From positions 2,309 through 8,402 of the forward strand of contig DNYJ01000005.1 of NCBI GenBank assembly GCA_003505155.1: a DNA stretch of 6,094 nucleotides, written 5' to 3'. The DNA comes from Candidatus Uhrbacteria bacterium. Its GTDB lineage: Bacteria; Patescibacteriota; Patescibacteriia; UBA9934; UBA10169. Numbering within the stretch: the first letter of the stretch is position 1; every line of letters begins with the position of its first letter. This document shows positions 2,181-6,094 of the stretch, one piece after another. The position numbers were made by a program, and so were the translations under genes. Below the pieces are notes generated by a model that was not told the origin of the DNA, made no database searches, and saw nothing but the letters and a program-made list of their open reading frames with translations.

Positions 2181-3323
2181 TTAGAGCAGAAATGGGAAAT
2201 AATTATCCCGACCAATTGTTGTGTACGTTGCCTCCGGATAGGAAGTGCTCCATTGCGAAGGTGGGGATTGTGGTTTCTTTGACCACTTGAATTCAAAGGC
2301 GCGAATTTCTCCGTCTCCTTCTTCGATCAAATCAATTTCTTGCCCTTCGTATGTGCGCCAAAAATAGGAAGTGGCGTAGATTTCCCGATAGGCGCGTTTC
2401 TTCAGACGTTCCACGAACAAAAAGTTTTCCCACAACTCACCCACGTCAGAACGATGATCTAATTCGTTAAATTGAGCAATGAGAGCGTTGCGCAATCCCG
2501 TATCATAAAAATAGTATTTGCTTTTGCGCGCCACTTCATTGCGCAAGTTCCGGCTGAATCCTCCGACACGAATCACAACGAACGCCTTTTCAAGCAGATC
2601 AACGTATCGCTGAACCGTCTTCACGGAAAGCCCGAGCTGGCGACTCAACTCCTGAAAGGAAACCTCCTTGCCAATCTGAAACGCAAGGAGCTTGAGAAGA
2701 TCAAGCAGATACTTGGAACCCTTGATCTGCTCCAGAGCCAAGATATCTTTCAATAAGTAAGCATGCGCCAACTCGGTCAGGAGTTCCTGTTTCCGCTTGT
2801 GGCTGTCGATCGTCAAAACTTCAGGATAACTTCCGTACACCAAGAAATCAGGCAACTTCTCGCGTAATTCATACTCGTTCATCTCCAAACGGAGTTCGCT
2901 TTGAGAAACGGGGTACAACGTCAACGTGCGTTTTCTTCCGGTCAGCGGTTCTCCAATTTGATTTGCGAGATCAAAAGATGAAGACCCCGTGGCTATCACA
3001 CGAATGTCTGGCCGGTGATCTACGATGATTTTAAGACCTCGCCCAATATTTGGGATTTGTTGTGCTTCATCAATAACCAGCAATTCATAGCCTTCGACAT
3101 AAGCCAAGATGGAAGAAAAATCCTGTGAAGAAAGTATTTGTTGCGTACGAATATTATCCCCGGAGTCGAGTTTGTATTTCCATGAAGTTTTTTTGAGATA
3201 TTCCTGAAGCAGGGTGGTCTTACCTACACGCCGAGGACCATAAATAACAAGAACTCTTCCAGCTTGTATAAATGGCTCTAAATCGGAATAAATCCTTTGA
3301 ATCATATAAAAAGAAGGTAGCAT
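2181..3323 (-). CDS. AAA-family ATPase with C-terminal DUF4143 domain
   Basis: This is a 380-aa cytoplasmic ATPase, of typical length for the AAA_14/DUF4143 family, whose cellular role is not established. Visible motifs: Walker A GPRRVGKT at 29-36; Walker B LLVIDEAQ at 81-88 (D85, E86); a sensor-like IATGSSS at 110-116; GSYPEVL at 164-170 and LLKDI at 190-194, both typical of the family. A winged-helix-like segment lies at about 218-250 (FQELSRQLGLSVKTVQRYV). The C-terminus has a nuclease-fold-like D331...E344-F-K346 pattern resembling PD-(D/E)XK; catalysis by it is unproven. ATG at 3323 is preceded by GGAG only 2 nt away; an alternative ATG at 3305 (M7) aligns better with the usual family start. 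The gene is clearly AT-richer than its neighbours (one 60-base line, 3061-3120, has 23 G/C; the flippase line 4381-4440 has 40), which suggests acquisition by transfer. Confidence 0.93.
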   Translation of the reverse strand: MLPSFYMIQRIYSDLEPFIQAGRVLVIYGPRRVGKTTLLQEYLKKTSWKYKLDSGDNIRTQQILSSQDFSSILAYVEGYELLVIDEAQQIPNIGRGLKIIVDHRPDIRVIATGSSSFDLANQIGEPLTGRKRTLTLYPVSQSELRLEMNEYELREKLPDFLVYGSYPEVLTIDSHKRKQELLTELAHAYLLKDILALEQIKGSKYLLDLLKLLAFQIGKEVSFQELSRQLGLSVKTVQRYVDLLEKAFVVIRVGGFSRNLRNEVARKSKYYFYDTGLRNALIAQFNELDHRSDVGELWENFLFVERLKKRAYREIYATSYFWRTYEGQEIDLIEEGDGEIRAFEFKWSKKPQSPPSQWSTSYPEATYTTIGRDNYFPFLL

Positions 3324-3351: not shown

Positions 3352-3385
3352 ATTCTTTGTTAACGTGGCACAATACGGACATTCT

Positions 3386-4801
3386 ATGGAGACAAAGGCG
3401 ATTGCGAGGAATTATCTTGTGCAATTCGGTAGCCGAGTTGTGGCCGTAACGCTTGGGCTGTTGACGCTCGCCGTCATGACACGCGCTTTGGGCGACACGG
3501 GGTTTGGACAATTTACGACGGCGGTTACCTATCTTCAGGTCGTCGCCGTCTTGGTTGATCTCGGTCTCACGCTTGTGTTCATTCAGATGATCTCCACTCC
3601 GGGCGCCGACGAGGATCGAATTTCAAGCGCGCTCCTCGGACTGCGGCTCCTCTCAAACGCGCTCGTGTTTGCCATCGCCGTCTTCTTCGCCTTCCTCACA
3701 CCCTACGAGCTTGTCATCCGACTTGCCATCGCCGTGGGCGCCGTAGGTTACCTCGCGCTCTCGACGACCGGCATGCTCACGGGCTTTTTCCAGAAACATC
3801 TCGCCATGTGGCGTGCGGCTAGTGCTGAAATCATCAATCGAGTTCTCACTCTCATCTTTATCATCCTCGCGGCTTGGGCGGACTACGGCGTCGTCGCGAT
3901 GGTCTCCGTCATCGCCTTTTCCAACCTCGTGCAAATGTTGATCCTCATCGTGCTCGCTCAACGCTTTGTTCGCTTGCGCCCAACTATTGATGTTGCAATC
4001 TGGAAGTCGGCCGTTTCCGTGAGCTGGCCGATCGGCCTTTCCATCTTCTTCAACCTCCTCTATCTCAAAAGCGATGTGCTTATCCTGGGCCTCTATTATC
4101 CACAGTCGGAGGTCGGCGTCTACGGCGCGGCGTATCGCGTGCTCGACGTCTTCACCGCGCTTCCCGTCATGTATATGGGGCTCGTTCTCCCGCACCTCGT
4201 GGCTTCCTGGGCAAACCGCCTCAAGGACGAATTCAACCGCACGCTTCAGCAGACCTTCGACTTTTTCTCCGTCGCCGTCCTGCCTATTCTCTTTGGCACC
4301 CCGCTAGTGGCCGTCCCTTTGATGATTCTCGTGGCCGGCGGCGAGTTCGAACGCTCGGGCGCGGTTCTTCCCATTCTCATGCTCGCCATGCTCCCGATCT
4401 TCACCGGCGCCATGACGGGGCACGCGATCGTCGCTCTCAACAAACAGCGCGTGATGCTCTGGGGCTACGCTTTCACGGCCGCCGTCGCTCTCGCCGGCTA
4501 CTTCATCTTCATCCCTCTCTTTGGCATCACGGGCGCGGCATGGATGACGGTCGCAAGTGAAATCCTCATCAACACGCTCACGGCCTTCGTTGTGATGCGC
4601 ACTTCCGGCTGGCGCCCGCGCCTCACGATACCCGCCAAAGCCCTCATTGCGAGCGTCCTCATGACTCTTGTCCTCCTCGCTCTCCCATCCCTTCACGTCC
4701 TCATCACGATCCTCCTCGCCGCCGTCTTCTACTCTGCGGCAATCGTCGCGCTTGGAGGAATAAAATTAAAATTGGTACAAGACCTGTTGGAGCGACGATA
4801 A
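3386..4801 (+). CDS. Wzx-type polysaccharide flippase (MATE/MOP superfamily)
   Basis: This 471-aa integral membrane protein of the polysaccharide-synthesis (MVF/PST) group would flip undecaprenyl-linked oligosaccharides from the cytoplasmic to the outer face of the membrane. The sequence is a series of hydrophobic segments, about 12-14 by eye. Family landmarks: IARNYLVQFGSR at 6-17, TRALGDTGFGQF at 32-43, VDLGL at 57-61, and the charged mid-protein block YLKSDVLILGLYY from 226, followed by VGVYGAAYRVLDVF. The start is set at ATG 3386 because METKAIARNYLVQFG matches the usual N-terminus; an in-frame GTG at 3365 would add seven residues with no homology feel. Only a weak purine run (CGGAC) precedes the ATG. 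It is divergent from the ATPase and followed after 60 bp by the ligase-family gene, probably in one operon. No glycosyltransferase is visible, so the glycan is unknown. Confidence 0.92.
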   Translation: METKAIARNYLVQFGSRVVAVTLGLLTLAVMTRALGDTGFGQFTTAVTYLQVVAVLVDLGLTLVFIQMISTPGADEDRISSALLGLRLLSNALVFAIAVFFAFLTPYELVIRLAIAVGAVGYLALSTTGMLTGFFQKHLAMWRAASAEIINRVLTLIFIILAAWADYGVVAMVSVIAFSNLVQMLILIVLAQRFVRLRPTIDVAIWKSAVSVSWPIGLSIFFNLLYLKSDVLILGLYYPQSEVGVYGAAYRVLDVFTALPVMYMGLVLPHLVASWANRLKDEFNRTLQQTFDFFSVAVLPILFGTPLVAVPLMILVAGGEFERSGAVLPILMLAMLPIFTGAMTGHAIVALNKQRVMLWGYAFTAAVALAGYFIFIPLFGITGAAWMTVASEILINTLTAFVVMRTSGWRPRLTIPAKALIASVLMTLVLLALPSLHVLITILLAAVFYSAAIVALGGIKLKLVQDLLERR

Positions 4802-4861: not shown

Positions 4862-6094
4862 ATGAGCATCTTTGCACTCGTTCTCGCCATCCTCTTCGCC
4901 ATACTCGCCTGGCGTGACTTGAAGCTCGCCACGCTCGTCCTCGTCGGCGTATTGCCGATCTACCTCCTCCGCCTCGACTTCCTCGGCGTGCCATCAACCA
5001 TGCTCGAGGTTTTGGTGTGGGTGTTGGTGGTCGTGTGGGTGGTAAGGGGGTGGAGGGAGCATCAATGGAAGATGGGGAGATTCAGGATTCAGGATTTAGG
5101 ATTTAAGAGATTGCGAGTGCCGATCACGATTCTCCTCATCGCGGCTGTCATCTCAACCTTCACAGCATCTGATACAACCGCCGCGCTCGGAATTCTTAAA
5201 GCTTATTTCGTGGAGCCGCTTCTCGTGTTCGTTCTTGTTGTGAGCCTCTTCGAGCGCGACGATGTCTCCAAACTCTTCACGGCGCTCGGAGCCGCCGCTC
5301 TCGTTTTGAGCCTCTATGCCATCTTCCAAAAACTCACCGGCTTTGGCATCCCAGAACCCTGGGACACGGCGCGGCGTGTGACAAGTGTCTTTGCATATCC
5401 CAACGCCCTCGGTCTTTTCCTTGCGCCAATCATCGCGACGGTGCCGTTTGTTTTGAACTTCCCTCTTTTTTCAAGAATACCCCTCCACCCTTCGGGCACC
5501 TCCCCTAGATTAGGGGAGGGGGCGAGAAACGAAACCCATGTGCACGCGTTGGAACCCGTCACGAGGCTCCAGAGTATGTCTGCAACCCAGGACAAATTTG
5601 GAGAGCCTGCGGTTCCAAATTTCGTCGTGGGTTGCCTCGTTAGATACAGCATTTCCACATTCAGAAAAACATTTTGGATTCTTGTCTTCACGCTCGGCGT
5701 GATCGCCATCATCTTCTCGGAAACCCACGCCGCATGGATCGCCGTTCCCGTCGCGATTTTCCTCACAACCCTCACCCCCGCCTCCAAAAAATCCCGCCGA
5801 CTCACCCTCGGCCTCACCGCTCTTCTTGCCATTTTTCTCTTCGCAACCTCTACCACTTCCATCACTTCCATTACCTCTACCACCTCCCTCCAAGTTCGCC
5901 TCTCCCAAGGGCAAGAGACGTGGAGCTACCTCAAAGACGACAATCACTGGATTCTGGGAGCAGGCCTTTCGGGATACCCGAGCGCCATCGTGCCATACCA
6001 CGCAGCGACGCAATACGAAATCTTCCAATACCCGCATAACATTTTTTTGAATGTGTGGGTCGAACTCGGGATTATAGGTCTTATGGGGCTTATA
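4862..6094 (+). CDS. O-antigen ligase/polymerase-family membrane protein (Wzy_C type), 3' end missing
   Basis: An open frame of 411 codons runs from ATG 4862 to the right edge without a stop. It is a multi-spanning membrane protein expected to polymerise or transfer a lipid-linked glycan on the outer face of the membrane, downstream of the flippase. Landmarks: hydrophobic segments at about 3-17, 22-36, 48-61, 86-100, 117-130, 138-155, 183-200, 271-286 and 313-328; [20 protein letters not shown] at 170-189; a large outer loop with [19 protein letters not shown] and PHNIFLN (H392 is the probable conserved loop histidine), then [10 protein letters not shown]. Residues about 203-269 are not family-like: they translate a palindromic repeat (5480-5640 and flanks). 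Residues 73-82 come from a 7-bp repeat, and 329-342 are a Ser/Thr tract. No Shine-Dalgarno sequence precedes the ATG, which is the first after the flippase stop 60 bp upstream. The frame is intact, so I call it a gene and not a pseudogene. Confidence 0.88.
5080..5107. repeat. Four tandem 7-bp repeats inside the ligase gene
   Basis: ATTCAGG, ATTCAGG, ATTTAGG and ATTTAAG lie head to tail (4 x 7 = 28 bp). They fall in the hydrophilic stretch after the third hydrophobic segment of the ligase-family protein and encode [10 protein letters not shown] 7-bp unit shifts frame with each copy, so copy-number change by slippage would switch the gene off unless three units change together. From memory, 'ATTCAGGATTTAGG' runs are common as intergenic repeats in several bacterial groups. 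Confidence 0.85.
5499..5519. repeat. G/C-rich REP-like hairpin
   Basis: CCTCCCCTA (5499-5507) and TAGGGGAGG (5511-5519) form a perfect 9-bp stem around the 3-nt loop GAT. Upstream CCCCTCC (5480-5486) can compete for the same right arm, giving an alternative fold. The layout, short GC-rich arms with a nearby partial duplicate, is typical of REP sequences. No U-tract follows, so it is not a standard terminator. Confidence 0.85.
5582..5635. repeat. 54-nt interrupted hairpin
   Basis: GCAACCCA (5582-5589) pairs with TGGGTTGC (5628-5635). Inside it GAC (5591-5593) pairs with GTC (5624-5626), and AAATTTGGA (5594-5602) pairs with TCCAAATTT (5614-5622), leaving the 11-nt loop 5603-5613. There is one G-G mismatch (5590/5627) and one unpaired C (5623). 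Twenty base pairs in 54 nt are far beyond what a membrane-protein coding stretch needs, and support an inserted palindrome. Confidence 0.85.
5846..5887 (+). repeat. Low-complexity Ser/Thr-coding tract
   Basis: Fourteen codons made almost only of ACC, ACT, TCC and TCT with two ATY codons encode [14 protein letters not shown] (residues 329-342 of the ligase-family protein). The unit ACTTCCAT(C/T) occurs twice in tandem. It lies directly after a hydrophobic segment, at the start of the large loop that carries the catalytic-type motifs, so it is probably a flexible linker exposed outside the membrane. Confidence 0.6.

Follow-up and report, generated by a model that had tools for sequence, protein, structure and literature searches.

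Genomic context of the insert

The window (the whole 6,094-bp stretch of DNA analysed here) belongs to a genome of 976 kb in 43 contigs, whose mnmA gene has its best named relatives in Candidatus Uhrbacteria and other Patescibacteria, which makes Patescibacteria its likely group. The last gene of the window encodes an O-antigen ligase family protein with a Wzy_C domain above the curated cut-off (59.2 bits vs 31.7). The features referred to below are as follows.

3389..4801, + strand: polysaccharide flippase gene (PF01943, E 1e-25), neighbour, context only
4862..6094, + strand: O-antigen ligase family (Wzy_C) gene, host of the insert (PF04932, E 5e-16, residues 275-410)
5463..5670, + strand: in-frame insert occupying a loop that joins two predicted membrane helices (loop length against homologues; low-confidence linker in the model)
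5494..5533, + strand: element A, palindrome CCTCCCCTAGATTAGGGGAGG (5499-5519) with flank (90% match at C19:4602-4641)
5561..5566, + strand: left arm of the outer stem, ACGAGG, complement of CCTCGT at 5635-5640
5568..5639, + strand: element B, 72-bp dispersed palindromic repeat (covariance model R1, 83.3 bits)
5582..5602, + strand: 5' arm of the element B stem, pairing with 5614-5635 with one bulged base
5614..5635, + strand: 3' arm of the element B stem, pairing with 5582-5602

An ordinary AAA_14/DUF4143 ATPase gene (2181-3323) lies between a SpoIID-domain gene and the flippase gene. Within the Wzy_C gene, the heptamer-like run GATTCAGGATTCAGGATTTAGGATTT (5079-5104) encodes a short peptide and resembles another repeat-derived stretch; record P0003 has a similar peptide at the same place.

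Just beyond the window end (window position 6094; 2156-2157 of locus L001), a scaffold gap of 2 Ns interrupts the Wzy_C gene. A near-identical full-length Wzy_C record of 476 aa, P0001, differs in one residue and carries the same insert. The contig given for this record has a length of 5,059 bases, and the window's contig has 13,942 bases. The shared insert speaks against an assembly artefact, an objection raised in a preliminary description of this locus, with the qualification that the listing does not give the degree of independence of P0001. Gaps of 2 Ns also break pheT (L056, 2171-2172) and a second Wzy_C gene (L017, 2019-2020); full-length records exist across the gaps for the window Wzy_C gene (P0001) and pheT (P0241).

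Anatomy of the insert

The preliminary description had read three palindromic structures from the sequence, all of which are present: a 9-bp G/C hairpin at 5499-5519, a 54-nt hairpin at 5582-5635, in which 20 of the 21 family stem pairs are formed, and an outer ACGAGG/CCTCGT stem at 5561-5566/5635-5640. The outer left arm falls outside the modelled element B, and the left flanks of other element B copies are unlike that of the window. The gene frame is open through the insert and TAG codons at 5506 and 5511 close the two other forward frames, in agreement with the same description. RNA folding of 5463-5670 gave −71.3 kcal/mol, compared with −57.4 ± 4.6 kcal/mol for shuffled controls (z −3.05); none of 200 shuffles was as low, which rules out chance folding. 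Among known RNA families, the sole match was to a CRISPR repeat; it was below threshold and lay outside the insert.

In P0001 the Wzy loop is 75 residues long, compared with a median of 16 over 59 homologues (next longest 71, 51 and 49), indicating an insertion and bearing out the earlier view that the segment is foreign to the family. In the AlphaFold2 model, the insert links helices 180-198 and 254-286 as a low-confidence segment, with pLDDT blocks of 42-53 over residues 201-250.

Copies of elements A and B in the genome

Element A has one other copy in the genome, at C19:4602-4641, located between ORFs after an ORF that we named DnaK-like by eye. Of 72 genomes of the order, two contain its palindrome pattern: the one studied here and G011. 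At 1390-1500 of locus L006, the intergenic element A copy adjoins a second, similar palindrome (CCTCCCCTCCTAATCTAGGAGGGGA).

Element B was searched for with a covariance model, R1, built from 13 copies. R1 identified 18 distinct places in the genome at E < 1e-6, and BLAST added a half copy at C7:18786, giving at least 19 places; this number is a lower bound because R1 scored 150 of the 604 first-look candidates. Reverse-strand matches of the same palindromes and a weak match at C27:10479 (E 0.33) are excluded from the R1 count. As elements A and B each have separate copies elsewhere, a single composite palindrome is ruled out. The insert consists of two unrelated palindromic repeats, side by side and in frame, in one Wzy_C loop.

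The modelled element B copies are not all 72 bp long: they span 71-74 bp without a nested hairpin and 105-108 bp in the five copies that have one in the loop. This nested hairpin adds 33 or 36 bp, both multiples of three. Ten of the 19 copies are in frame inside nine ORFs, as listed below.

Window: Wzy_C gene
C7:15598: second Wzy_C gene, named by Pfam match
C5:98348: 761-aa membrane protein
C15: MFS transporter, named by Pfam match
C9: mnmA, two copies
C12:34180: pheT
C42: RNA uracil methyltransferase
Half copy: PriA-like protein
C12:108: 409-aa ORF open to the contig end

The other nine copies are intergenic, such as those that follow ORFs named ruvA-like, ligA-like and rplU-like by eye, and none was seen by eye to break a gene. 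The preliminary description, in which one dispersed intergenic repeat had entered a permissive loop, is largely supported: both elements recur elsewhere in the genome, the loop is an insertion against homologues, and the fold exceeds that of shuffled controls. It is amended in two respects: two repeat families occupy the loop instead of one, and element B is not mainly intergenic. Plasmid and phage collections gave no match to element B. In the C5 membrane protein, CTTCGACTTCGCTCAGGGCAGG follows soon after element B in frame (L010, 1576-1675), and this insert may be composite; we take CTTCGACTTCGCTCAGGGCAGG to be a common repeat type.

Conservation of the stem and use of reading frames

The stem of element B is conserved in pairing. 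Across 18 copies, 95% of 377 cells are paired and 12 of the 21 stem pairs have changed on both sides; neither value was reached in any of 500 shuffles, a comparison that by itself overstates the support because the copies are related. A slid-partner control is better suited, and in this control pairing fell to 29-55%.

The ten genic copies are read in five of the six possible frames, namely three top-strand and two bottom-strand phases. Three host genes share the peptide motif RQI(L/W)(R/K)A or a near variant of it. With five of the six frames in use, and with the stem preserved despite a changing peptide, the spreading unit appears to be the DNA (or RNA) hairpin and not the peptide.

Each of the nine full genic copies is in frame and has no stop in the frame used. 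The chance of this under free frame and length is about 8e-7 (open frames among six for each copy, multiplied by 1/3 for length), a rough and partly circular figure because copies were called genic by a spanning ORF, except at the homologue-checked sites, and because copies share ancestry. The open, in-frame copies favour reading through the insert over skipping it.

Insertion sites in other host proteins

Insertion was checked at five sites in four genes. Homologues served as the reference for Wzy, pheT and the two mnmA sites; for the methyltransferase, the reference was one solved structure. Of the other host genes, the MFS transporter and the second Wzy_C gene are identified by their Pfam matches, and the C5, C12:108 and PriA-like copies are placed in genes by the ORF that runs through them.

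The 19 Uhrbacteria-group orthologues of mnmA that were aligned lack both element B inserts; in some of them, loop 1 carries other, shorter additional segments. Compared with E. coli MnmA (2der), residues 132-183 and 338-380 are unaligned. The pheT insert is absent in 11 of 11 homologues. In the methyltransferase, residues 265-337 are unaligned against 11 residues of 2jjq, and the insert adjoins what we take to be the SAM-binding motif. The AlphaFold2 models show the extra loops at the inserts with low confidence and the folds otherwise mostly with confidence.

Distribution in relatives

Scans with R1 of 59 genomes, and of 380 genomes of the class, detected element B in its own genome only. Sensitivity was limited: the two scans scored no more than 67 and 10 candidates in each genome, respectively, under stricter filters and E-value limits, and regained just 22 and 10 of the 31 own-genome R1 matches, so absence in relatives is not proof. 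Protein records of close relatives beyond these genomes do show element B, as read by eye at the peptide level.

P0002, a Wzy protein with 63% identity, carries in the same loop a peptide of element B in another frame. Among the mnmA records, P0122 shares the loop-1 copy with the mnmA of the genome studied here, minus the nested hairpin of about 12 aa, and is without the loop-2 copy. In loop 1, P0123 carries a peptide from a further frame of element B, and P0125 one that resembles element A. The closest PheT record of another organism, P0242, is without element B. The copies in the same loop but in other frames may be separate insertions, or one insertion followed by indels.

Recurrent palindromes in Wzy_C and mnmA loops

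We examined the corresponding loops in other genomes. The Wzy_C sample, taken within the order, comprised 65 loci representing 64 genes (L164 and L187 are one gene) from 66 other genomes with a match, leaving out G406 and G048, which gave weak partial matches. An earlier look at the 12 best matches to the insert-bearing query was biased for that reason and was not used for the counts. Loop lengths ranged from 5 to 45 aa, and 21 of the 64 genes had a loop of 20 aa or more. A hairpin at shuffle p ≤ 0.01 was found in 10 of these 21 long loops, compared with none of 42 segments of the same length from the same genes. Seven of the 21 reached p ≤ 0.005; L217, L228 and L196 were marginal, at p 0.01. 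The Wzy stretch of the window itself gave p 0.045 in this ungapped test, with a longest perfect stem of 9 (element A), because a bulge and a mismatch interrupt the stem of element B.

For mnmA, the loop pattern was located in 78 of 80 loci, mostly Patescibacteria by title, with 44 loops of 20 aa or more. Hairpins at p ≤ 0.01 (200 mononucleotide shuffles) occurred in 8 of the 44, against 0 of 88 controls; this result supersedes a first scan with 100 shuffles and another loop limit, in which 10 of the 30 longest loops had p ≤ 0.01. When both genes were pooled, hairpins were present in 18 of 65 long loops and 0 of 130 control segments.

By eye, the loop palindromes of relatives are unrelated to element B and mostly to each other. 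Three of their inserts were tested, and all were dispersed repeats of their own genomes. The L100 insert has 2 further places in its genome. The L110 insert, from a Nomurabacteria mnmA (3382-3516), is an in-frame ATTCCCG...CGGGAAT palindrome with 85 genome matches, and the L155 insert has 28 matches in G024 and 26 in G034 (both strands, the insert itself counted, in each case).

These results suggest that, across Patescibacteria, unrelated palindromes have repeatedly used the Wzy_C loop and mnmA loop 1 as landing sites. A wider reading, that such loops are standing landing pads, the same exposed loops being colonised repeatedly by unrelated lineage-specific palindromes in any open frame throughout the radiation, is one that we lean towards slightly. 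If so, such pads would keep supplying new protein segments to housekeeping and envelope proteins across Patescibacteria. Because the same Wzy_C and MnmA loops hold unrelated palindromes in many relatives, tolerance, retention, loss and the moving process become testable.

Comparison with known palindromic repeats

Rickettsia palindromic elements were reportedly described by Ogata et al. in 2000 and 2002. Two later papers present them as palindromes of approximately 100-150 bp in a reduced genome, located in frame in conserved protein genes and also between genes (PMC10969869, PMC2229807), and a review states that each encodes a conserved peptide (PMC10969869). Element B is similarly dispersed and palindromic, with a modelled span of 71-108 bp and at least 19 places; it is in frame in nine ORFs that still look whole, and 9 of its 19 copies are between genes. 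It differs in having no conserved peptide or frame, as five of six frames are used, and in a host of another phylum.

Wolbachia palindromic elements lie in frame in addA, addB and priA, with no stops except in one strain group (PMC4224334). As compared by description, they share in-frame palindromes with element B, and the phylum differs. GTAG- and CGTC-tagged REPs are reported inside genes, sometimes twice per gene, and two Xanthomonas carry different REPs at roughly the same position of recB (PMC3733652). Element B is likewise a palindromic repeat inside genes, and occurs twice in mnmA. Unlike tagged REPs, it has no constant CGTC in the 3' arm (CGTC in 7 and CGGC in 8 of 18 copies), and unlike RAYT-mobilised REPs, its copies do not flank the Y1 transposase genes (8 loci). 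Intragenic bacterial MITEs are described as small non-autonomous repeats, some fused in frame, such as ERIC/RU-1 and Correia (PMC2229807) and QMITE (PMC5896051); element B is 72-108 bp, one long hairpin with long inverted arms present.

By analogy, element B appears to work like Rickettsia and Wolbachia palindromic elements and intragenic REPs, without a conserved peptide or tag. The reports cited describe in-frame palindromes chiefly in Rickettsia and Wolbachia, and in some other genomes (PMC10969869, PMC2229807, PMC4224334, PMC3733652, PMC2996958). Our search of the open-licence literature returned no paper pairing Uhrbacteria with palindromic, none pairing Patescibacteria with repetitive extragenic palindromic, and none joining Candidate Phyla Radiation, MITE and in-frame. 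The present case extends this behaviour to small Patescibacteria genomes, with a frame-free family.

Persistence of element B in genes

We consider with considerable confidence that the loop holds two in-frame repeats, and that element B is a likely mobile hairpin that persists within genes in surface loops, with the frame kept and no stop. A selfish or neutral hairpin repeat would land both in genes and between genes, and genic copies would survive only in loops and in frame. The hairpin itself would spread, presumably by transposition, and its peptide would be read in whichever frame is open. Judging from the sequences, the inserts would be translated and the host proteins would still work, with no benefit to the host needed. 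In this way, likely mobile hairpin repeats probably supply working proteins of this group with new segments. Annotators of these genomes should allow for real proteins that include translated repeat peptides.

Element B could instead be kept for an RNA-level role in the host, such as translation pausing or mRNA stabilisation between protein segments. The paired changes that keep the stem and the position of the inserts between ordered elements in the Wzy and MnmA models are consistent with such a role, but presence varies among close relatives in pheT and mnmA loop 2, nine copies lie between different genes, and no other genome among the 380 of the class showed element B (at limited sensitivity); we regard this explanation as unlikely.

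It is very improbable that the insert is untranslated, being cut from the mRNA or skipped by the ribosome. The hairpin anatomy would suit such a process, but skipping needs no open frame, whereas the nine full genic copies are open (about 8e-7, partly circular) and the five nested hairpins add multiples of three. Selection and spread of the peptide, with the palindrome as a by-product, can be given very little credence: the motif shared by three genes points in this direction, but the use of five of six frames on both strands and the nine of 19 copies that are intergenic argue against it. An ordinary family-specific variable loop, with repeats arising from chance or assembly noise, is hardly tenable. 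Family members do differ in the length of this loop (64 relatives span 5-45 aa, and the 59 homologues reach 71 aa), but this reading is contradicted by the 18 R1 matches, the stem covariation, the near-identical P0001 and the hairpins in long loops vs controls.

The genome has eight Y1_Tnp (IS200/RAYT-type) matches (L035-L042), six of which are over the cut-off. No element B was found beside these genes in the 8 loci with approximately 1.5 kb of flank, where single half-motif matches (≤ 3 mismatches) occurred and no paired halves; mobilisation by resident Y1 transposases is thus unsupported. Five of the eight Y1_Tnp loci have perfect palindromes of their own (e.g. with 15-21 bp arms at L040), which are unrelated to element B.
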